The notes beneath the pieces were generated by a model. That model saw nothing but the letters and a program-made list of their open reading frames with translations. It ran no database searches and was not told the DNA's origin. From Hyphomicrobiales bacterium (GTDB lineage Bacteria > Pseudomonadota > Alphaproteobacteria > Rhizobiales > Aestuariivirgaceae), in assembly GCA_027051995.1 (NCBI GenBank), contig JALUFY010000243.1:1-10996 (forward strand): 10,996 nt of DNA. Reading direction: 5' to 3'. Shown here piece by piece: positions 630-10,694 of the stretch. Both the position numbers and the translations under genes were made by a program. The stretch's first letter is position 1. Each line of letters begins with the position of its first letter.

Positions 630-733
630 AAGGAATTCTCCTCCCGCTCCGGTTTTTTCGCCTGGCCGTTAATAACTCCCTGCCGGGTTGTCTCAAGCTG
701 CCCCCCTGCGCTCTTGCATTGAAAACATGCTTC

Positions 734-762
734 TTGACACCCTTCCGCCTTCGCCAGATCAT
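734..762 (+). promoter_or_regulatory. Candidate sigma-70-type promoter of the polysaccharide operon
   Basis: TTGACA at 734-739 is a perfect -35 box and, with the preceding C, matches the CTTGAC form common in alphaproteobacteria. After a 17-base spacer, GATCAT at 757-762 matches the -10 consensus at three of six positions. Transcription would begin near 769, just upstream of the preferred hydrolase start, and would leave only a short leader. The weak -10 box keeps confidence low. Confidence 0.35.
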
Positions 763-789
763 GGCATGGGCGTTGCATTCCGCATGGGC

Positions 790-1887
790 ATGAGTGCGAA
801 TCTGTCCCGGCGCAAGACACTGGGCCTGCTGGCGGCGCTGCCGGCGGGGGGGCTGGCGCATGCCTATGCCGCCCGGCGAAAGGACGGCGGCCTGGGCGAA
901 ATCGCCGCCAGGGCGGGCGTTACCTATGGCGCGTCCGCCGGGACGGTGATCTTCGATGACGCCGAATACCGCCTGCTCTATCTGAAGCACTGCAAGGCGC
1001 TGACCACCGACGTGGACATGAAATTCGACTGGCTGCGTCCCGAGGCCGGCAAATGGGACTGGGGGCCGGCGGACAGGCTCGCGGCCTTCGCCGAACGCAC
1101 CGGCATGACGCTGCGCGGCCACGCATTAATCTGGAACGAGAACGCCCCGGACTGGCTCAAGGCTCTGTCGCTGGCGGAAATCCGCCGGGTGTTCGATGAG
1201 CACATCGAGACGGTGGTGGCGCGCTACGCCGGGCGCGTGGCGGTGTGGGACGTGGTCAACGAGCCCTTCTGGCCGGGGCACGGCAAACCGGGCGGATACC
1301 GCGCCGGGCCGTGGCATGAGGCCTTCGGGCCGGGCTACGTCGAGCGCGCCCTGAAGCGCGCCCGCGCCGCCGATCCGCATGTCAAGCTGGCCATCAACGA
1401 AGCCCATTGCGAGCGCGACGACGACGTGGGCCGGGCCATCCGCGAGGGCATGTCGCGGCTCGTCGCGCAATTGCGGGACGCGGGCGCGCCGCTGGATGTT
1501 TTGGGCTTTCAGGGGCACTTGCAGCCGGGCAGGCCTTATGACGACGCCGCCTTCGCCGCCTTCCTGCGGCGCTTCTCCGGCCTTGAGCTGCACATCACCG
1601 AGCTGGATGTGAACGACGAGACATTCCCCGCCGCCATCCGCAAGCGCGACGCCCTTGTGGCGCGGCGCTATCATGATTTTCTCTCCGCCGTGCTCGCCGT
1701 GCCCGCGGTGAACACCGTCATCAACTGGCAGCTGGCCGATCACTACAGCTGGTACAACGATCTGGCGCGCGCCGGGCAGTTGCGCTCCCGCCGCGCCCCG
1801 CGCCCGCTGCCGTTTGATTCCGCATACCGGCGCAAGCCCGCCTGGTTCGCCATGGCGCGGGCCTTTCGCGAAAGGAAGGCGGCATGA
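790..1887 (+). CDS. Tat-exported GH10 glycoside hydrolase (endo-1,4-beta-xylanase family)
   Basis: This is a retaining beta-glycosidase of family GH10, 365 residues from this start. Residues 5-27 form a Tat signal: LSRRKTLG, a hydrophobic stretch, then AYA before the likely cleavage site. The fold-specific motifs appear in order: GHALIW at 110-115, DVVNEPFW with acid/base E158, GFQGH at 239-243, and HITELDV with nucleophile E271. An NWQLADHYSWY segment near the C-terminus fits the last strand. Two subsite motifs deviate from xylanases: DVDMKF replaces the usual ENxMKW, and the residue after the IW pair is Asn, not His. The substrate may therefore not be plain xylan. The neighbours suggest that it cuts the exopolysaccharide made by this operon. 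The start is uncertain: in-frame starts also exist at 784, 766, 727 and TTG 688, none with a good ribosome site. I chose 790 because it gives the shortest normal Tat n-region and lies downstream of the candidate promoter. Confidence 0.9.
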   Translation: MSANLSRRKTLGLLAALPAGGLAHAYAARRKDGGLGEIAARAGVTYGASAGTVIFDDAEYRLLYLKHCKALTTDVDMKFDWLRPEAGKWDWGPADRLAAFAERTGMTLRGHALIWNENAPDWLKALSLAEIRRVFDEHIETVVARYAGRVAVWDVVNEPFWPGHGKPGGYRAGPWHEAFGPGYVERALKRARAADPHVKLAINEAHCERDDDVGRAIREGMSRLVAQLRDAGAPLDVLGFQGHLQPGRPYDDAAFAAFLRRFSGLELHITELDVNDETFPAAIRKRDALVARRYHDFLSAVLAVPAVNTVINWQLADHYSWYNDLARAGQLRSRRAPRPLPFDSAYRRKPAWFAMARAFRERKAA

Positions 1888-3041
1888 GCAAACAGGACAT
1901 TTCGCGCCCGCCCGCATGGCCTGCGGACATCAGGCCGCTGACATCTCTGCGCTTTTTCGCCGCCCTCTTCGTGGTGCTCCTGCATTTCCGCGAGCGTTCC
2001 GGGCTCGACGGGCTGATGGACAGCGCCCTGTTCACGCGCGGTTATCTGGCGGTGGATTTCTTCTTCATCCTTTCGGGCTTCGTGCTGGCGCATGTCTATA
2101 TGCGTTCCGTGCGGGCGGGAACGTTCTCGCACATCGCCTTTGTGGAAAAGCGGCTGGCCCGGCTGTGGCCCATGCATCTGGCCTCGCTGGCGGCGGTGAT
2201 CGTGCTCTATCTGGTCATGACGCTGGCTGGCCTGACGCCGGACAACCCGGACAGATACCGCCTCGATCTGCTGCCGGCCAATCTCTTCATGCTGCACGCC
2301 TGGGGATTCAATTACGAGCAGAGCTTCAACTACCCCTCCTGGTCGGTGAGCGCCGAATGGTTCGCCTATATCCTGTTCCTGCCCTTCGCGGCGCTGCTGG
2401 CGCGGCTGTGGCGCAGGCCTGTGCTGTTTCTCGATCTGGCGGCGGCCCTTTTCGTGGTCTTCTATCTTCTCGCGCCAGCCTTCACAGGCGCGCCGCTGAT
2501 GCGCCTGACGGACGGATATGGCGTCTGGCGGATCGTTCCGGAGTTTCTCATCGGCATGGGCCTGTGGCGGCTGGGGCTGTCCGTGCAAATGGACCGTTCT
2601 CTGACCGCGCTGCATCTGCTCATGGCGGCGCTCACCATCGCGGCGCTGGGCGCTATGGGGGCGGCTGACTTCCTGTTCGTTCCCGCCTTCGCCTGGCTGA
2701 TCTTCGCCGCCGCCGAATCGGCGCGCCAGCGCACGCCGGGCGCGGGATGGCTGGGGGCCGGGCCGCTGGTCTATCTGGGCGATGTCTCCTTCGCTCTCTA
2801 CATGGTGCATGCGATCGTCTATACGGTCTGGTTCCACGGCGTCGATCTGGCGGCGGGCGCGGACTTCGCGGCCCGCTGGCGCACGGAGATATGGGCGGCG
2901 GGCATCGGCGTTTCCGTGCTTGCGGCGATCCTCGCCCATCACCTGATCGAACTGCCGGGCAAGCGGCTGATCCTGCGCCTTGCGCCGCTGCGGCGGCTTG
3001 ACGCCCTCAAGGGCGAAAGCGGCGGAAGGCAGCACCCATGA
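1884..3041 (+). CDS. Acyltransferase-3 family membrane protein (OafA/ExoZ-like)
   Basis: This 385-residue polytopic inner-membrane protein belongs to the acyltransferase-3 family, which transfers acetyl or similar groups to sugars of surface polysaccharides. Family marks include SLRFFAA with R23 and the conserved H34 in helix 1, VDFFFILSGFVL at 58-69, the basic FVEKRLARLWPMH segment at 86-98, and SWSVSAEW at 152-159. A late YLGDVSFALYMVH helix is also typical. The length fits the bare membrane domain with no SGNH esterase-like extension. The gene starts inside the stop of the GH10 gene (ATGA overlap), with GGAAGG just upstream, so translation is probably coupled. In this context it most likely decorates the polysaccharide handled by its neighbours. 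The acyl group and the acceptor sugar cannot be read from the sequence. Confidence 0.92.
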   Translation: MSKQDISRPPAWPADIRPLTSLRFFAALFVVLLHFRERSGLDGLMDSALFTRGYLAVDFFFILSGFVLAHVYMRSVRAGTFSHIAFVEKRLARLWPMHLASLAAVIVLYLVMTLAGLTPDNPDRYRLDLLPANLFMLHAWGFNYEQSFNYPSWSVSAEWFAYILFLPFAALLARLWRRPVLFLDLAAALFVVFYLLAPAFTGAPLMRLTDGYGVWRIVPEFLIGMGLWRLGLSVQMDRSLTALHLLMAALTIAALGAMGAADFLFVPAFAWLIFAAAESARQRTPGAGWLGAGPLVYLGDVSFALYMVHAIVYTVWFHGVDLAAGADFAARWRTEIWAAGIGVSVLAAILAHHLIELPGKRLILRLAPLRRLDALKGESGGRQHP

Positions 3042-4351
3042 GCCCGCGCGCGGCATATGCGCCCGCTTCGCCCGCGCGCGGCCTGGGGGCCGCTCCGTCC
3101 GCGCCTGCCCTGCCGCAGGGGGCGGGATACAATCTGCTGCTGGCGCTCATGACGGTGGCGCTGTTCGCCGTTTCGCATCTGCTGCTCTCCATGCTGGGGC
3201 TGCATTACGAGGTGCCGGGCGGCTCCATCATCGAGAAAATCCATCCGGCCACGTGGCTGGCGGTTCTGGCTTTCGCCTGGGCCCTGCTGGCGCGCGGCCA
3301 TCCGCTGGAATGGGCCAATGACGCCGTGGCGCGCCACAAGGGGCTGCTGATCTTCGCCGCCGCAAACGGCGTGCTGCTGTGGCATCTGATGCTCAATCTG
3401 CATCTGCCCTTCTCCATGCTCATCGACACCTTCTTCCTGCCCATGCTGCTGGTGCTGCTGCTTGGCGCAGCGAGCGGGCGGCAATTGCGCATGCTGCGCC
3501 TCATCGTTCACGGGCTGATGGCGGCCAATGCCCTGCTGGGCATCTTCGAGGTGGCCGCGAACTTGCATCTGACGCCGCTGATCATCGGCGATCTGGTGCA
3601 GACGGACGACTGGCGGGCCACCGCCCTGATGGGCCATCCGCTGAACAACGCGGCGGTGACGGCGCAGTATCTGATCGCCCTGTCGCTGGGCGGCGGGCGC
3701 GATCTGCCAAGGCCCTTGCGCATCGGCCTGTTCGTTCTCAACATGGCGGCGCTGAGCGCCTTCGGCGGGCGCATCGCCTTCGTGCTGGCCATCGCCATCA
3801 TCGGTTCAATAGCCATCTGGCGGCTGCTGAATATTGCCGCCGGGCGGCGCTTTTCCGTCTCCTCGGCGATTTTCGTCTCGCTGGCGGTTCCCGCCGCCAT
3901 CGCCGCCGTCATCCTGCTTTACGACGCCGGGATTTTCGACCGCTTTCTCACCCGCTTCGTCTCCGACAAGGGCTCGGCGGAGGCGCGCATGATCATGCTG
4001 GAGCTGTTCAACGCCATCCCGGAACGCGACATCTTCTTCGGCCCGCAGGCCGAACAGGTGGCCGCCCTGATGCGCTCAAAGGGGCTGGTGGGGCTGGAGA
4101 GTTTCTGGGTGGCCTTCATCCTCTCCTACGGACTGGCGGTGAGCTTGATCTTTTTCGCCGGACTTTTCGCTTTCCTGTGGGATCTGGTGAAGTCCTCTTC
4201 GCCGAAGGCCCTGGCGCTGGTCATCTTCTTTTTGCTGGAGGGCTCCACCTCGGTGTCCGTCTCGGCCAAGACCACCACCCTGGCGATGCTCGTCTTCATC
4301 GCCATGACCATGTTGCGCCGCGACGAAGACAGCGGCTACAGGGAATTGTAG
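3038..4351 (+). CDS. VpsF/Wzy-like polytopic polysaccharide biosynthesis protein (O-antigen ligase/polymerase superfamily)
   Basis: The 437-residue protein has a Pro/Ala-rich cytoplasmic lead of about 30 residues and then roughly ten hydrophobic segments. Between them lie polar loops with features typical of Wzy polymerases and O-antigen ligase-like proteins: ALMGHPLNNAAVTAQ at 196-210, AFGGRIAFVLA at 241-251, and DKGSAEARMIMLELF at 310-324. I recognise it as close to the VpsF group of exopolysaccharide proteins, so its probable role is polymerising lipid-linked repeat units at the periplasmic face of the inner membrane. It begins inside the stop codon of the acyltransferase gene (ATGA overlap) and has GGAAGG upstream, so the three genes form one operon. 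Its last 16 bases overlap the 3' end of the opposing flavoprotein gene. Polymerase versus ligase cannot be decided here, because this superfamily is called by topology and a few loop residues. Confidence 0.8.
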   Translation: MSPRAAYAPASPARGLGAAPSAPALPQGAGYNLLLALMTVALFAVSHLLLSMLGLHYEVPGGSIIEKIHPATWLAVLAFAWALLARGHPLEWANDAVARHKGLLIFAAANGVLLWHLMLNLHLPFSMLIDTFFLPMLLVLLLGAASGRQLRMLRLIVHGLMAANALLGIFEVAANLHLTPLIIGDLVQTDDWRATALMGHPLNNAAVTAQYLIALSLGGGRDLPRPLRIGLFVLNMAALSAFGGRIAFVLAIAIIGSIAIWRLLNIAAGRRFSVSSAIFVSLAVPAAIAAVILLYDAGIFDRFLTRFVSDKGSAEARMIMLELFNAIPERDIFFGPQAEQVAALMRSKGLVGLESFWVAFILSYGLAVSLIFFAGLFAFLWDLVKSSSPKALALVIFFLLEGSTSVSVSAKTTTLAMLVFIAMTMLRRDEDSGYREL

Positions 4352-5721
4352 AACATCTCCTGGAACATGCCCCGGCCCCACTGGATGTTGGCCTTGCCCA
4401 AGGAGCGCGAGCGTTTGGGGAAGGCCTGCGCCTTCTGCATGAAGCGCTTTTCGCCCGTGCCTCGGTCATAGACCCAGCCGAAGCTGATCTTGAAGGCCAC
4501 CGATTGCAGGGGCTTGGCGTTGACCGCCACATAGCACATCAGCCCCGGCGAGCTGAGCGGCGAGAGATCCTTGCCCTCCATCTGGCTGGTGATGACGCGG
4601 GCGATGTGCCCGGCCTCGTAGTTGGCCGCCATGCCCGCCTTGATGAAGGGCATGGGCCGCGCGTCGCCGCCGACGAAAACACGCTCGTCGCCCCGCACCC
4701 GGTAGCTGATGGGATCGATATCGGCGAACCGGCCGGGGTCTTTCATGTCGGCGATGCCGAAGCGCTCCAGAACGCGCGAGCCGCGAACGGGCGGATAGAT
4801 GGCCGCGTCGGTGAAGACGATTTCGCCCATCTCCGTCTCGATGCGCCGTTTGCCGATGTCCACCCCGGTGATGTTGACGCCGCCGATGCGCACCACGTAG
4901 CGGCGGTAGAGATCGCGGATGGCCTCGTTGATGCCGTCGGGGTGGAAGGGCGGATGCTCGCGCGAATCAAGCAGCAGCACGCGGCCCTTGATGTCGTTGT
5001 CCTTCATGTATCCGGCGATCATGCAGGCGCGCTCGTAGGGCGCGGGCAGGCAGCGGTAATTGCCCGGCGGAGCGGTGAGCACGAAGACGCCGCCGTCGAA
5101 CTCCTCCAGCTTGCGCTTCAGGGTGAGAAGCTCCGAACCGGCCATGAAGGCCGCCGGATAGGTGGCGCGCAGGCGCGCGGCGTCGCCCGGATCGGCGACG
5201 CCGTAGCGGGTGTAATCGTAATCGATGCCGGGGGCCACCACCAGAAAGTCATAGGTCAGCCAGCCCTGATCGGTGTAGATAACGCGCTTGTGGCGGTCCA
5301 CATCCACCACCGCCGCATGCAGCCATGTGTAATCGTTGTTGTGAGCCGCGTCGATGTAGCTGTGGGTGAGATCGTCCAGCGGAATGCGGTCCACCAGCCA
5401 CAGGTTCGACAGCGGGCAGGAAAAGAAGCTGGCGCGCTTCTCGATGAGAACGACGTCGAGATCGCGCCTGTTCTTCTTCAGCTGGCGGGCCGTCTCCAGC
5501 CCCGACCAGCCACCGCCGATGACGGCGACGCGCGTGCCGCCGAAACCGGGCACCTCCGCCTGGCGGGAAAAGGCGCTGGGCGGGCGCACCTTCAGCGGCT
5601 TTTCCGCCCCCAGCGCGCCGCCGGAACCCGCGCCAGCGCCGGCCGCCGCGCCCAGGGCGGCGGCGGACGCGGCCTTGATGGCCTCGCGCCTGTTCAGGCC
5701 TGTCTTTTTCTTCCTGGCCAT
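4336..5721 (-). CDS. FCSD-type flavoprotein, second copy (FccB/SoxF-like sulfide dehydrogenase flavin subunit)
   Basis: The protein has 461 residues. A Tat signal occupies residues 1-39 (LNRREAIK, Ala/Gly-rich core, cleavage probably after LGA). The FAD Rossmann motif AVIGGGWSG is at 66-74, and a second FAD motif VFVGGDARPMPF is at 348-359. Three cysteines match flavocytochrome c sulfide dehydrogenase: C102 in FFSCPLSNLW (covalent 8-alpha-cysteinyl FAD site) and C224 in YRCLPAPYERA plus C396 in LMCYVAV (redox disulfide beside the flavin). Spacings of 122 and 172 resemble the 119 and 176 of the Allochromatium protein (C42, C161, C337, as I recall them). The family oxidises sulfide to sulfur or polysulfide in the periplasm. 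It is the last gene of the operon, 45 bases after the Rieske gene, with GGAG 11 bases before the ATG. It is paralogous to the copy at 6610-7959: 31 of 52 residues match around the first FAD motif. The true substrate is inferred. Confidence 0.9.
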   Translation of the reverse strand: MARKKKTGLNRREAIKAASAAALGAAAGAGAGSGGALGAEKPLKVRPPSAFSRQAEVPGFGGTRVAVIGGGWSGLETARQLKKNRRDLDVVLIEKRASFFSCPLSNLWLVDRIPLDDLTHSYIDAAHNNDYTWLHAAVVDVDRHKRVIYTDQGWLTYDFLVVAPGIDYDYTRYGVADPGDAARLRATYPAAFMAGSELLTLKRKLEEFDGGVFVLTAPPGNYRCLPAPYERACMIAGYMKDNDIKGRVLLLDSREHPPFHPDGINEAIRDLYRRYVVRIGGVNITGVDIGKRRIETEMGEIVFTDAAIYPPVRGSRVLERFGIADMKDPGRFADIDPISYRVRGDERVFVGGDARPMPFIKAGMAANYEAGHIARVITSQMEGKDLSPLSSPGLMCYVAVNAKPLQSVAFKISFGWVYDRGTGEKRFMQKAQAFPKRSRSLGKANIQWGRGMFQEMFYNSL

Positions 5722-5741
5722 GATCTCAAGCTCTCCGTTGC

Positions 5742-5756
5742 GCCCCGCGCGGGGGC
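5742..5756 (-). promoter_or_regulatory. GC hairpin in the leader of the second flavoprotein gene
   Basis: In the 45-base gap between the Rieske and second flavoprotein genes, GCCCC and GGGGC form a 5-base stem around a GCGCG core, which is itself self-complementary. It lies about 20 bases before the start codon and just upstream of the GGAG ribosome site. It could tune mRNA stability or translation of the last gene. No U-run follows, so it is not a standard terminator. Confidence 0.35.
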
Positions 5757-5766
5757 CGCCATGCCA

Positions 5767-6492
5767 TCAGCATTCGATGGCGTCTTCGGAATATCCCGAT
5801 ACGGGCATGGCGGTGACATCGCCCTCCACCCGCTTGCGGTATTTGCTGCGCCCGAACTCCTTGCGCAAATCCTTGCGGTAGGCCTTGAAGAACTCCTTGT
5901 AGAGCTCCGAGCCGGCGATGCCGGTGGCGAAAAGCTCATCCGTCTTTTCGTCATGCTCCAGCAGCACGGCGGCCAGCGGAAACTTGGCCGGCCCGGCCAG
6001 CACCCTGGCCCCGGCGGCGGGATCATAAACGCTGGCGTGGGCGCAGCAGGTGATGACGCGGCCATGGCCGGACATCTCGTTGCGCTTTCTGCGGTAATTG
6101 AGAAAGCTGGTTTCCTTGCTGTCATAGGACAGGGCATGGGCGCAAATGGCCGCGTAGGCGACGATGGAGCCGCCAGGGCCCACGCCGCCGGGCCATGTAT
6201 ATGCCTTGCCGTCGCGGTCTTCCACATCCATCGCCGGGGCGGGATCCTCGACCCGGATGAGCAGAACGGGGGTGGATTCGTAAGGATAGTGAAAAATCCA
6301 GTTGGCGTGCATCGGCAGCCTGGAGGCCATCAGCGGCTTGCCGTCCGCCGTCACCAGGCGGGCGCGCGGCGGATTGTCCAGCGCGAAGGCGGGCGCGGTG
6401 GCGCTCCTTACCGCCGCTCCGGCCACGGCGGCGGCCACGGCCGTCTTGCCGCACAGTTTCATGAACCCCCTGCGATCAGTCTCCCGCGTCAT
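5767..6492 (-). CDS. Tat-exported Rieske [2Fe-2S] protein with atypical cluster-binding boxes
   Basis: From the chosen start the protein has 241 residues. A Tat signal comes first (DRRGFMK, then an Ala-rich core and APAFA, cleavage probably after residue 37). The Rieske domain is marked by box 1 with C117 and H119 (ICAHAL) and box 2 with C149 and H152 (TCCAHASVYD), followed by the usual AGPAKFPL turn and strands. The boxes are 32 residues apart, longer than the roughly 20 of ordinary Rieske proteins. The cysteines that form the extra disulfide in cytochrome bc-type proteins are missing (CAHAL, CCAH), but Ser154 and Tyr156, which raise cluster potential in that family, are present. A charged, Lys/Arg-rich tail of about 45 residues ends in Cys. 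It lies between two FCSD-type flavoprotein genes, so it probably relays their electrons. The start at 6492 follows an AGGGAGGA site 10 bases upstream. An ATG at 6519 would lengthen the Tat n-region to 15 residues and sits before that site. Confidence 0.85.
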   Translation of the reverse strand: MTRETDRRGFMKLCGKTAVAAAVAGAAVRSATAPAFALDNPPRARLVTADGKPLMASRLPMHANWIFHYPYESTPVLLIRVEDPAPAMDVEDRDGKAYTWPGGVGPGGSIVAYAAICAHALSYDSKETSFLNYRRKRNEMSGHGRVITCCAHASVYDPAAGARVLAGPAKFPLAAVLLEHDEKTDELFATGIAGSELYKEFFKAYRKDLRKEFGRSKYRKRVEGDVTAMPVSGYSEDAIEC

Positions 6493-6529
6493 TCCCCTGG
6501 CGTCCTCCCTATGCTGCATGATCCGGGAA

Positions 6530-6573
6530 TCGCGCCCGCCCTGCCCCCAGACTGCCCCAAAAGGCGGGCGCGA
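6530..6573 (-). promoter_or_regulatory. Strong intercistronic hairpin between first flavoprotein and Rieske genes
   Basis: Two perfectly complementary 11-base GC-rich arms, 6530-6540 and 6563-6573, flank a 22-base loop that holds two near-copies of GGGGCAG on the transcribed strand. The element fills the middle of the 117-base gap between the two genes. No U-run follows, so it looks less like a classical terminator than like an mRNA processing, stabilising or attenuating structure that sets the ratio of the first flavoprotein to the downstream genes. Confidence 0.55.
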
Positions 6574-6609
6574 GACCGTTTGTGTCCGTTCAGCCGTCAG
6601 CCTGGCGCA

Positions 6610-7959
6610 TCAGGAGAACATGTCGCGGTAAAGGCCCTTGCCCCACTCGATGTTGGCCTTGCCGAGCTGCTTCGAGCGTTTTTCGATCAGCTTGACATCG
6701 GTGAAGCCCCAGCCCTTGCCCTTGGTGAACTTGTATTTGGCGTCCACCATGATGGACTGCTTGCCCTCGCCATCGACCATGGAATAGCAGATGGTGTTGG
6801 GGCTCTCCCAGGGCACATCCTTGCCCTGGGCGCGGGCGGCGATCATCTTCGAGACGATGTGCGCCTCGGTATTGGCCGTGTTGCCCGACTTGGAGAAGGG
6901 CATGGGCCGCGCATCGCCCGCGATATAGGTGTGATCGTCTCCCGGCACGGTATACTTGAAGTTGTCGATCTTGCCTTCCATCTGCGGGCTCTTGGGATCG
7001 GCCAGGCCCAGATCCTGAATGATGCGGGCGGCGCGCACGCGCGGATAGAGCGCCGCGTCGGCGAATTCCACCTCGCCGAACTCGGTGACAACCTTCTTCT
7101 TGTCCACGTCCACGCCGGTGATGTTGACCGCCGTGCGGTATTCCAGATGATCCTTGTGCAGCTCCTTGAAGGCGGCCAGGAAGCCATCGGCCTTGATGGT
7201 CGGCTTTTCGTTGGGATCGAGCAGCACCACCTTGCCCTTGATGCCCTCGCGCTTGAAGTAGGAGGCGATGAGGCAGGCGCGCTCGTATGGGCCGGGCAGG
7301 CAGCGGTAGTTGCCGGTGGGCACGTTGAGCAGGAAGACGCCTTCCTCGAAATCGTCCAGCTTGGCCTTGATGGACAGATGCTCCGAACCGGGCTTGAAGC
7401 CGGCCGGATAGCTCTGCGCCACGCGGATGGCCTCCGCCGGATCCTTCACGCCCAGTGAGGCGTAATTGTAATCGATGCCGGGCGAGAGCACGATATAGTC
7501 GTAATCGATGTAGCCCGCCGTGGTGAAGGCGCGGCGCTTCTCGCGGTCGAGCTGCACCAGCATGCCCTGCAACCAGGTGTAGCCATTGTTCTTCGCCGCG
7601 TCGGTATAGGAGTGCAGCAGCAGATCGAGATCGACGACATCCCCCAGCCACAGGTTGGACAGCGGGCAGGAGAAGAACGTCGAATTCGGCTCGATCATCA
7701 CCACGTCGAACTTCGGATTGTTCTTCTTGAGGTATTTCGACATGGTCAGGCCCGACCAGCCGCCGCCGACGACGATGACCCGCTGTCCGGACGGTTTCGG
7801 CAGATCGGCGGCGCGGCTCAGCGGCCCGGCCACGGCCGCCAGCGCCGGCGTGGCGCCCGCCGCAACCGTCAGGCCCGCGCCGGCCCCGGCGCTGGCCAGC
7901 GCCGCGCCCTTCAGGAAATCACGCCGGCCCAGGCCGGTCTTGCCAGTGTTTTTCGTCAT
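6610..7959 (-). CDS. FCSD-type flavoprotein, first copy (FccB/SoxF-like sulfide dehydrogenase flavin subunit)
   Basis: This is the first gene of the operon: 449 residues with an excellent ribosome site (GAGGAGGG, 8 bases before ATG). A classical Tat signal GLGRRDFLK starts at residue 9, and cleavage is likely after ALA at 39-41. FAD motifs are VVGGGWSG at 63-70 and YIAGDARPMPF at 345-355. The three diagnostic cysteines of flavocytochrome c sulfide dehydrogenase are present: C98 in FFSCPLSNLW for covalent FAD, and C220 (YRCLPGPYERA) with C391 (TICYSMV) for the redox disulfide, with spacings of 122 and 171. A fourth cysteine, C229, is shared with the second copy. The C-terminal block with LGKANIEWGKG is also shared. 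The family passes two electrons from sulfide through flavin to a cytochrome c subunit, but no such subunit is encoded nearby and the next gene is a Rieske protein. Sulfide as substrate is an inference. Another reduced-sulfur donor is possible. Confidence 0.9.
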   Translation of the reverse strand: MTKNTGKTGLGRRDFLKGAALASAGAGAGLTVAAGATPALAAVAGPLSRAADLPKPSGQRVIVVGGGWSGLTMSKYLKKNNPKFDVVMIEPNSTFFSCPLSNLWLGDVVDLDLLLHSYTDAAKNNGYTWLQGMLVQLDREKRRAFTTAGYIDYDYIVLSPGIDYNYASLGVKDPAEAIRVAQSYPAGFKPGSEHLSIKAKLDDFEEGVFLLNVPTGNYRCLPGPYERACLIASYFKREGIKGKVVLLDPNEKPTIKADGFLAAFKELHKDHLEYRTAVNITGVDVDKKKVVTEFGEVEFADAALYPRVRAARIIQDLGLADPKSPQMEGKIDNFKYTVPGDDHTYIAGDARPMPFSKSGNTANTEAHIVSKMIAARAQGKDVPWESPNTICYSMVDGEGKQSIMVDAKYKFTKGKGWGFTDVKLIEKRSKQLGKANIEWGKGLYRDMFS

Positions 7960-8053
7960 GCTTCGTTCCCTCCTCTAAGACGTAACATGGAAACATCCTT
8001 TCGGGGACATTCCCGCCCTCCGGACGCGCCGCGCTGTCATGGACGCGCTGAGA

Positions 8054-8068
8054 GTGATTGCCGATCAC
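8054..8068. promoter_or_regulatory. Inverted repeat GTGAT-N5-ATCAC, possible operator
   Basis: Perfect 5-base arms around a 5-base centre overlap the -10 box and the expected start point of the flavoprotein-operon promoter. That is a normal place for a repressor site. It resembles a CRP/FNR-type site but has the wrong spacing for CRP, so I do not assign a regulator. Confidence 0.35.
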
Positions 8069-8091
8069 ATTCACGCAATGCAATGTGTCAA
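8064..8091 (-). promoter_or_regulatory. Candidate promoter of the flavoprotein-Rieske operon
   Basis: On the minus strand, TTGACA (8091-8086) is a perfect -35 box. After 16 bases, TGTGAT (8069-8064) matches four of six -10 positions. Transcription would start near 8057 and give a leader of about 97 bases before the first flavoprotein start codon. No competing gene lies between. Confidence 0.45.
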
Positions 8092-8120
8092 TATATAGAG
8101 CAATAATGCCAGCCGGTAAC

Positions 8121-8134
8121 AATTGCAAGCAATT
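8121..8134. promoter_or_regulatory. Inverted repeat AATTGC-AA-GCAATT, possible activator site
   Basis: Six-base arms with a 2-base centre lie about 70 bases upstream of the predicted start of the flavoprotein operon, where activators such as LysR-type proteins usually bind. No regulator gene is present in the window to pair with it, so the role is a guess from position. Confidence 0.3.
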
Positions 8135-8343
8135 TTCACTTTTTCGTGCGGCAGTTAGCCAGTAAACACAAGCATATAACAGCGCATTTCCCGTATGGAT
8201 GGATGTATATCAGGCGTTTCTTATATATTATTTCTCTCATATACGAATTTAATACAATATCCCATTCCGCCTTTTCGCCCGGCCCCGGCGTTTCCTCCGG
8301 CCGGACGGAACCGGCGGCGTTTCTTCACCGCCCCTCCGGCCTG

Positions 8344-8372
8344 TTCCCATCGCGGGCGGGGAGGCCTATATT
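8344..8372 (+). promoter_or_regulatory. Candidate uvrB promoter giving a leaderless or near-leaderless mRNA
   Basis: TTCCCA at 8344-8349 matches four of six -35 positions. After exactly 17 bases, TATATT at 8367-8372 matches five of six -10 positions. The start point predicted 6-7 bases after the -10 box falls on or next to the A of the uvrB ATG at 8379. This would explain why the only Shine-Dalgarno-like sequence (GGGGAGG, 8358-8364) is a poor 14 bases from the ATG. No LexA-type GTTC-N7-GTTC box was seen upstream. Confidence 0.4.
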
Positions 8373-8378
8373 GCCCGC

Positions 8379-10694
8379 ATGGGACACAACAGGACAAAGG
8401 GCGGAACGAAGCCGCTGGGGCTGGAAGAGGCCCCTGCGGCCATGCTGCGGCCCGATCCGCTGGCCTCCGCCGAGGCCGGGCGCGAGGCCCTGGCGCGGCT
8501 GCGCCCGCCCATGCCCGCCTTCGAGGGGTTCACGCCCTACCGCCCGAGTCGCCCGGCCAAGGGCGAGGGCGGGCGGCCCTTCCGGCTGGTCTCGGATTTC
8601 GAGCCCAGGGGCGATCAGCCCCGGGCCATCGCCGAGCTGGTGGAGGGTATCGGGAACGGCGAAGTGGATCAGGTGCTGCTCGGCGTCACCGGCTCGGGCA
8701 AGACCTTCACCATGGCCAAGGTGATCGAGGCGGTGCAGCGTCCGGCGCTCATCCTCGCCCCCAACAAGACCCTGGCGGCGCAGCTCTATGGCGAGTTCAA
8801 GAGCTTCTTTCCCGAAAACGCGGTGGAGTATTTCGTCTCCTACTACGACTACTACCAGCCGGAAGCCTACGTGCCGCGCACCGACACCTATATCGAGAAG
8901 GACAGCGCCATCAACGAACAGATCGACCGCATGCGCCATTCGGCCACGCGCGCCCTGCTGGAGCGTGACGACGTCATCGTCGTGGCCTCCGTCTCCTGCA
9001 TCTACGGCATCGGCGACGTGGAGACCTACGCCGCCATGTCACTGCCGCTGAAGGCCGGGCAGGAGATCGCCCAGAAGCGGATCATGGACGATCTGGTGAA
9101 GCTGCATTATCAGCGCAACGACGGCAATTTCATGCGCGGCGCCTTCCGCGTGCGCGGCGATGTCATCGAGGTCTGGCCCTCGCATCTGGAAGACCGCGCC
9201 TGGCGCATCTCCATGTTCGGCGACGAGGTGGAGGAGATCACCGAATTCGATCCGCTGACCGGCAGGCGCGCGGCGCAACTGGAGGAGGCGCGCATCTACG
9301 CCAACTCCCATTACGTGACGCCCAAGCCGACGCTGGAGCAGGCGGTCACCCGCATCAAGGAGGAGCTGCGCCAGCGGCTGGAGCAGTTTCACGCCGCCGG
9401 GCGCATTCTGGAGGCCCAGAGGCTGGAGCAGCGCACTCTCTTTGACATCGAGATGATGCTGGCCACCGGCTCGTGCCCGGGCATCGAGAACTATTCGCGC
9501 TATCTGACGGGCCGCAAGCCGGGCGAGCCGCCGCCGACGCTGTTCGAATATCTGCCGGACAACGCCCTTCTCTTCGCCGACGAGAGCCATGTCTCGGTGC
9601 CGCAGATCGGCGGCATGTTCAAGGGCGACTTCAACCGCAAGGCGACGCTGGCGGAGTTCGGCTTCCGCCTGCCCTCCTGCGTGGACAACCGTCCGCTGCG
9701 CTTCGAGGAATGGGACGCCATGCGCCCGCAGTCCATCTTTGTTTCGGCCACCCCCGGCCCCTGGGAGCTGGAGCGCACCGGCGGGGTCTTCGCCGAACAG
9801 GTGATCCGCCCCACCGGACTGGTCGATCCGGAAATCATTGTGCGCCCCTGCGCCAGCCAGGTGGACGATCTCATCGCCGAATGCCGCGATGTGGCGGCCC
9901 GCGGCCAGCGCGCCCTGGTCACCGTGCTGACCAAGAAGATGGCCGAGGATCTGACCGAATACATGCACGAGCAGGGGCTGCGCGTGCGCTATATGCATTC
10001 GGACATCGACACCATCGAGCGCATCGAGATCATCCGCGATCTGCGTCTGGGAGCCTTCGATATTCTGGTGGGCATCAACCTGCTGCGCGAGGGGCTGGAT
10101 ATCCCCGAATGCGCCCTGGTGGCCATTCTCGACGCCGACAAGGAGGGCTTCCTGCGCTCCGAAACCTCGCTCATTCAGACCTTCGGCCGCGCCGCGCGCA
10201 ACGTCGAGGGGCGCGTCATCTGCTACGCCGACCGCATGACCGGCTCGCTGGAGCGCGCCATCGGCGAGACGAAGCGGCGGCGCGAAAAGCAGCTGGCGTG
10301 GAACGCCGAACACGGCATCACGCCGGAAACCGTCAGGAAGAACATCGGCGACATCATCGGCAGCCCCTGGGAGGCCGACCGGGTGACGGTGGACGCCGGC
10401 CCGGCGGGCGAGGACGGCGCGCTTGTGGGCCACAACATCGAGCAGGTCATCGCCTGTCTGGAAAAACGCATGAAGGCCGCCGCCGCCGGTCTGGAATTCG
10501 AGGAGGCCGCCCGCCTGCGCGACGAGGCCAGACGCCTGCGCGAGCAGATGATGGCCGCCATGGACGGCCCGGTGTCCAGATCCGCCCTGCAAGCCCCCGA
10601 AACAACCTGGCCCGGCGCCCCCGGCGGCGCAAAAAGAACAGGCAAAAAGGGCAAAAGCGCCAAAAAGGCCGCCTCCCGGAGGCGGTCCGGATGA
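8379..10694 (+). CDS. uvrB: UvrABC excision repair system subunit B (excinuclease helicase)
   Basis: UvrB is the damage-verifying helicase-like subunit of nucleotide excision repair. It is loaded by UvrA and recruits UvrC. The 771-residue protein has Walker A GVTGSGKT at 102-109, the beta-hairpin that clamps DNA ([12 protein letters not shown], 155-166), the DESH Walker B at 401-404, motif [11 protein letters not shown] at 600-608, and a C-terminal UVR domain for UvrA/UvrC contact at about 687-722. Bacterial UvrB proteins are usually near 670 residues. The excess here is a lead of about 65 residues before the first helicase segment ([14 protein letters not shown]) and a tail of about 45 residues rich in Lys, Arg, Ala and Gly ([10 protein letters not shown]). 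Both are likely flexible, and similar additions are common in alphaproteobacteria. The gene stands alone between an unrelated divergent operon and a tRNA. Its start is the first in-frame ATG and is supported by the adjacent promoter candidate. Confidence 0.98.

Follow-up and report, generated by a model that had tools for sequence, protein, structure and literature searches.

A recurrent, sulfur-linked gene triad of two sulfide dehydrogenase-type flavoproteins and a Rieske protein in a Hyphomicrobiales bacterium

Closest described systems and the window locus

Two genes for flavoproteins of the flavocytochrome c sulfide dehydrogenase (FCSD) type, FCSD-A and FCSD-B, flank a gene for a Rieske-type [2Fe-2S] protein on a 10,996-base contig (C243, JALUFY010000243.1) of a Hyphomicrobiales bacterium. 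The contig was analysed over its whole length and is called the window; it belongs to a 2.14 Mb draft genome that is 88.6% complete (G000). The gene order itself is not brand-new. In the uncultured Sulfurihydrogenibium-like Aquificae bacterium LSSB, the order dhsU1–Rieske–dhsU2 was in print in 2012, within a cluster that has a flavocytochrome gene upstream and soxXYZAB downstream (PMC3504083; the papers cited here were accessible in part, and what is said of them holds for those parts). LSSB DhsU1 is a monomeric flavoprotein with no other chromophore that oxidises sulfide with horse-heart cytochrome c, and the text of that paper names ‘Rieske’ twice, solely for the placement of the gene (PMC3504083). 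A later study tested dhsU1 and dhsU2 for transcripts by reverse transcription PCR, and the word ‘Rieske’ does not occur in its accessible text (PMC4912159). Within the literature searched, the FCSD–Rieske–FCSD order was found in one paper only (PMC3504083); it is not described in the accessible parts of a paper on Caldithrix (PMC5317091) or of a review (PMC8097209), and a paper on cable bacteria has Rieske only as part of complex III (PMC13047784). An earlier note on this DNA knew of no characterised system with the arrangement, a claim that falls to the dehydrogenase–Rieske–dehydrogenase order already published (PMC3504083). Compared by published description, the LSSB cluster resembles the window in that two genes for sulfide dehydrogenase flavoproteins enclose one for a Rieske protein in an organism that oxidises sulfide, and DhsU1 keeps the cysteine that links flavin adenine dinucleotide (FAD) and the redox Cys pair, whereas the flanking flavocytochrome and sox genes, and the position of DhsU1 closest to FccB among assayed enzymes, set it apart (PMC3504083).

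The triad is real, recurrent and sulfur-linked. Its fresh part is a Rieske family with an unvarying terminal cysteine, repeatedly paired with FCSD clades other than FccB. We hold with moderate confidence that the locus encodes a periplasmic sulfide- (or persulfide-) oxidising module, in which an AioB-like Rieske protein would relay electrons from FCSD-A and FCSD-B to cytochrome c. This reading is based on gene order, conserved residues, an AioB-like predicted fold, recurrence and a tree position apart from FccB.

The three genes are consecutive on the minus strand (Table 1), with the coordinates that had been claimed except for the Rieske start, which is better set at 6492 because GGGAGGA precedes the ATG there (no similar element stands before 6519) and the ten best homologues are 240–241 aa long; residue numbers of the Rieske protein follow the 250-aa open reading frame (ORF). 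Both flavoproteins exceed the 27-bit cut-off of the Pfam model FCSD_central (PF21706), scoring 82.1 and 66, and among PDB entries they match best 5n1t, 3vrd and 1fcd, all FCSD flavoprotein subunits. The three diagnostic cysteines, numbered Cys42, Cys161 and Cys337 in the published description (PMC3504083), were rightly reported for both: the FAD-linking Cys and the redox Cys pair are C98, C220 and C391 in FCSD-A and C102, C224 and C396 in FCSD-B, and the Glu that follows the first redox Cys is also kept. Database names for such flavoproteins are uneven: ‘sulfide dehydrogenase [flavocytochrome c] flavoprotein subunit’, ‘NADH dehydrogenase FAD-containing subunit’, or none. The twin-arginine translocation (Tat) signals ascribed to all three proteins stand in part. 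RR motifs are present at residues 12, 16 and 11 (FCSD-A, Rieske, FCSD-B), and the general NCBIfam Tat model TIGR01409 stayed short of E 1e-3 for all three, so that the signal is a motif recognised by eye; for a canonical FccB of G003 the same model did pass that threshold.

With classical FccAB (1fcd, 3vrd, 5n1t), the window flavoproteins share the flavoprotein domain and the diagnostic cysteines, but the triad locus has no FccA gene and FCSD-A and FCSD-B fall outside FccB. In a tree of 76 rows (22 from the loci and 54 picked from 195 database proteins), six FccB rows are split off by a 100/100 branch of length 3.07, with FCSD-A and FCSD-B on the other side. FCSD-B lies in a 17-row clade (100/100) and FCSD-A in a 36-row clade (99/99), the branching order among clades not being settled by the tree. 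A recent duplication of FCSD-A into FCSD-B was rejected on account of these separately supported clades. A second difference is an extra Cys nine residues past the first redox Cys (ERAC), which is nearly invariant in the FCSD-A/B subfamily, where canonical FccB rows mostly have ERAS.

The long branch and the ERAC cysteine would also suit a subfamily whose active site differs and which acts on an organic thiol, persulfide or sulfane sulfur instead of sulfide. FCSD-A was searched in 13 genomes at E 1e-8, with three weak or fragmentary matches set aside (G043:C140, G814:C279 and G814:C340). A second kind of FCSD, 32–35% identical to FCSD-A, was found in 10 of the 13 (G002–G009, G043 and G814, the clear G814 case being on contig C460); these canonical FccB genes have a CxxCH-bearing frame next door, in contrast to the triads of G000, G001, G003 and G009. 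Classical fccAB is thus present elsewhere in six of the eight genomes with a triad or an FCSD-A–Rieske pair, so sulfide is already covered there, which again favours another substrate. Conversely, every FCSD catalytic residue compared is kept, and the search found neither classical fccAB in G000 or G001 nor any other FCSD in G001, which is 98% complete; we regard a substrate other than sulfide as unlikely. The same distribution means that one of the two options in the earlier note, in which the Rieske centre replaces the cytochrome (the other being that it precedes it), is no general rule. The published order, too, has a flavocytochrome gene upstream (PMC3504083).

The Rieske protein keeps its ligand motif as CAH...CCAH (C126/H128 and C158/H161). 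His161 is kept in 106 of 129 aligned rows, with Glu in 19 and Asp in 4. It misses the cut-off of the Pfam Rieske model PF00355 (14.7 versus 20.3 bits), which a relative in G043 passes at 22.8 bits, and its predicted fold is AioB-like, matching Rieske proteins in a fold search. AioB itself differs: the window protein scores 40 bits against the cut-off of 95.65 for NCBIfam TIGR02694, and its gene adjoins a flavoprotein gene, not that of the molybdenum subunit AioA (a Pfam scan found no AioA gene among the 8 window ORFs). AioB matches stop at residues 211–229, and the C-terminal stretch extends beyond them to end in Cys. The best NCBIfam match is SoxL2 of Sulfolobales (TIGR03171, 100.6 bits), yet this score is far under the cut-off of 582.1 and SoxL2 has an archaeal terminal-oxidase setting (PMC5461723). 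Database names for the relatives are ‘arsenite oxidase small subunit’, ‘Rieske Fe-S protein’, or none; the source record of one close relative is labelled Thermopetrobacter sp.

Two further cysteines mark this family. The terminal Cys is present in 120/120 database homologues, in 9/9 locus rows and in 129/129 rows of the alignment, and Cys159, not a canonical cluster ligand, in 129/129. The usual disulfide between loops 1 and 2 is missing, with Ser131 and Ala160 at its positions. No account of a Rieske family with a C-terminal cysteine was found in the literature searched, which covered few subscription papers, and no studied member was found; the unvarying cysteine offers a precise handle for testing the family. 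The last Cys of DsrC and that of the SoxY arm act as sulfur carriers. By analogy, the terminal Cys might take sulfane sulfur from the flavoprotein, which would make the Rieske protein a sulfur carrier as well. None of 195 FCSD homologues ends in Cys, a sulfur oxygenase reductase (SOR) gene stands beside one pair in G043 and dsrC lies on the triad contig of G003, all in keeping with such a role. We nevertheless consider it doubtful, since two Rieske homologues that stand without FCSD (G458, G769) likewise end in Cys, and a structural disulfide is the simpler use for a second invariant Cys at the cluster. Equally doubtful is the fuller form of this idea, a double carrier whose cluster would take electrons, to be passed to cytochrome c, while the terminal Cys with Cys159 would take sulfane sulfur from FCSD-A/B, to be passed to Sox or Dsr. 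If true, the protein would be a thiol-armed Rieske protein, of a kind not otherwise known to us.

Gene order across genomes and its sulfur setting

Rieske homologues were sought in four overlapping sets, each counting the window's own genome: 60 relatives (10 with a match at E 1e-3), 385 genomes of the class (one at 1e-10, the window's own genome), 398 of the phylum (eight at 1e-10) and 397 of the order (four at 1e-25). In the class, phylum and order searches no genome had more than seven first-look candidates scored, and misses are possible. Strong matches occur in 6 of 11 same-genus genomes (the window's own included), in G043 (two copies), in G814 of the same order, and in G458 and G769 elsewhere in the phylum. 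Weak matches (G016, G041, G046, G522, G559, G635 and G669) were excluded from the family counts, and no FCSD was found in the stretches read around them (only about 3 kb for G046).

The complete triad is found in six genomes of two families (G000, G001, G003, G007, G009 and G814), and FCSD-A with Rieske but without FCSD-B in two more (G006 and G043). Flavoprotein genes of G007 and G814 are cut by contig ends, and FCSD-B of G009 runs to the last contig bases. Because the same order occurs in other species, it is beyond chance. In G006, Rieske and FCSD-A lie between the same neighbours as in G000 and G001 (the gene at 3038–4351 and uvrB) with no FCSD-B; the triad thus differs within the genus, and FCSD-A with Rieske is therefore the smaller unit. 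A heteromer of the two flavoproteins, one of the options first proposed, cannot then be a general need. G043 has two FCSD–Rieske pairs, the flavoprotein of one being split over two overlapping frames; in the second pair the FCSD-like protein (L029:10514–11893, minus strand) apparently lacks the FAD-linking Cys motif.

This distribution also bears on a rather unlikely alternative, in which each flavoprotein works alone as a sulfide dehydrogenase, handing electrons straight to cytochrome c, and the adjacent Rieske protein has a different partner or function. The properties of LSSB DhsU1 would fit it, as would the Rieske homologues of G458 and G769 and a solitary FCSD-A-like gene without Rieske on contig C108 of G814. 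Adjacency of FCSD and Rieske in eight genomes, including G006 where FCSD-B is missing from the same site, and two divergent pairs in G043 argue against it. In the orphan Rieske homologues (L030:8771–9550, minus; L031:8944–9648, plus) the fourth ligand position is occupied by Asp or Glu (CCADH, CCAEH).

All six reading frames of the window are free of CxxCH, in line with the earlier note, which saw none in the real genes, and an overlooked cytochrome at this locus was rejected for that reason. The claim that no fccA or soxE adjoins the triad also holds, as no haem c gene adjoins it in the four triad contigs long enough to be informative, those of G000, G001, G009 and G003 (11.0, 13.5, 7.5 and 60 kb read, respectively; G009 seen on one side of FCSD-B only). 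Around the triad of G003, on a contig of 258 kb, 60 kb were read, and in them three frames of at least 60 aa carry CxxCH: a DsrL-like gene, a frame resembling DsrJ (the nearest haem c gene, about 18 kb off) and one of 161 aa and no recognised kind, about 12 kb off. The same 60 kb contain dsrA (NCBIfam), a second sulfite reductase gene (Pfam), dsrC (both) and, by eye, further dsr-like genes. This dsr run stops 13–16 kb short of the triad, and no fccA was seen between the two. In G043, the SOR frame (PF07682, L028:1864–3684) lies 45 bases past the pair whose FCSD is split. Of 13 genomes, 12 have SoxY and only the window's own, which is incomplete, lacks a match; dsr, apr and sox are present in Thermopetrobacter sp. 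TC1 (PMC5099947). Sulfur oxidation is thus the likely setting, in agreement with what had been proposed. PF00034 has 17 matches in the window's genome.

Close kin of FCSD-A are rare: among 398 phylum genomes, each with no more than four candidates scored, three match at E 1e-70 (G000, G003 and G511, the last at 36% identity). Among plasmids, the Rieske query retrieved one AioB-like record and the FCSD-A query 79 records, all below 60% identity. An FCSD-like gene adjoins soxC and a cytochrome c on a plasmid of Allomeiothermus silvanus and soxY on one of Paracoccus alcaliphilus; Rieske is not listed in either region, the plasmid gene tables being incomplete. What the two regions bear out is a sulfur setting of FCSD relatives and not the triad. 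At L121:4384–9384 and L123:4246–9026 (Paracoccus alcaliphilus plasmid) the genes run in the order c-type cytochrome, FccB-type flavoprotein, a further gene (YeeE/YedE in L123), FCSD-like flavoprotein, SoxY; the FCSD-like protein of G511 carries Gly in place of the FAD-linking Cys. Equal longest-contig size matches 21 of 120 Rieske rows to some of the 195 FCSD rows, which is taken as a hint of linkage only, and at least the two shortest sizes, 2293 and 2297, may be coincidence. Four FCSD rows and one Rieske row (P0009, P0126, P0178, P0245 and P0256) are on contigs all 8565 long, perhaps one locus with four flavoprotein genes.

Candidate electron path

In the sulfide-oxidising module proposed here, FCSD-A and FCSD-B would oxidise reduced sulfur at the Cys pair beside covalently bound FAD, the flavin electrons would pass one at a time to the Rieske [2Fe-2S] cluster, and the cluster would deliver them to soluble cytochrome c, which would in turn supply an oxidase. 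The path from Cys pair through covalent FAD and [2Fe-2S] to soluble cytochrome c seems the most likely because of the analogy with AioB, whose cluster passes electrons to cytochrome c. The Rieske protein would then serve the flavoprotein as AioB serves arsenite oxidase and FccA serves FccB. By analogy with AioB and bc1, its cluster would be expected to have a redox potential of about +130 to +300 mV (PMC3758308). FCSD-A and Rieske would form the core of the module, and FCSD-B, an old paralogue, may act on another sulfur species or under another condition. The missing Rieske disulfide may be replaced by a Cys159–Cys250 bond that pins the C-terminal tail over the cluster. If the module works in this way, FCSD-type enzymes may use an AioB-like Rieske centre as electron outlet in place of a cytochrome subunit, and predictions of sulfide oxidation would have more genes to take into account.

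Sequence distances of the Rieske protein follow those of FCSD-A (r 0.81, 22 pairs) and FCSD-B (r 0.855, 11 pairs), with 0 of 5000 permutations as high in either case; 17 of the 22 and 6 of the 11 pairs were matched through equal-sized contigs and not by adjacency read directly. Near copies and partial or split genes were left out (G000, G007, G009 and one G043 pair for FCSD-A; G009 for FCSD-B).

Several observations weigh against the module. The correlation of distances is partly shared ancestry, which alone gives such a correlation, and most pairs come from equal-sized contigs. No coordinates show the proposed Cys159–Cys250 disulfide, and the last ten residues of the predicted model have a mean predicted local distance difference test (pLDDT) score of 69. 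The triad is patchy, with no Rieske match in five of the 11 genomes of the genus; in G458 and G769 the Rieske family occurs without FCSD within about 9 kb, so the family has at least one other role; and the classical fccAB found in most of the triad and pair genomes means that taking the place of the cytochrome subunit is not general. LSSB DhsU1, moreover, reduces cytochrome c by itself (PMC3504083). Of the Rieske–FCSD sulfur chain first proposed, the recurring unit, the lack of an adjoining fccA or soxE and the sulfur setting are upheld, whereas the part given to the Rieske centre is called into question by DhsU1, which alone reduced horse-heart cytochrome c (PMC3504083).

Coordinates and neighbouring genes

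Table 1. Features of the triad locus, in window positions.
Feature	Position	Strand	Remark
FCSD-A flavoprotein, 449 aa	6610..7959	-	RR motif at 12-13
FCSD-A FAD-linking Cys98	7666-7668	-	
FCSD-A redox Cys220	7300-7302	-	
FCSD-A redox Cys391	6787-6789	-	
FCSD-A subfamily Cys229	7273-7275	-	
Rieske-type [2Fe-2S] protein, 241 aa	5767..6492	-	from ATG with Shine-Dalgarno; ORF from 6519, 250 aa
Rieske cluster loop 1, Cys126-Ala-His128	6136..6144	-	
Rieske cluster loop 2, Cys158-Cys159-Ala-His161	6037..6048	-	
Rieske C-terminal Cys250	5770..5772	-	final residue of protein
FCSD-B flavoprotein, 461 aa	4336..5721	-	RR motif at 11-12
FCSD-B Cys102	5416-5418	-	
FCSD-B Cys224	5050-5052	-	
FCSD-B Cys396	4534-4536	-	
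FCSD-B Cys233	5023-5025	-	
Intergenic region, FCSD-A / divergent uvrB	7960..8378	.	candidate triad promoter region

The triad promoter is likely to lie in the region between FCSD-A and the divergent uvrB; a simple scan listed no minus-strand promoter-like or terminator-like sites in 4300–8400. On the plus strand, 688–4351 holds a gene for a GH10 xylanase-like protein with an RR motif, one for an acyltransferase and one for a protein without Pfam match, overlapping end to start. The last of these overlaps the 3' end of FCSD-B, on the opposite strand, by 16 bases.

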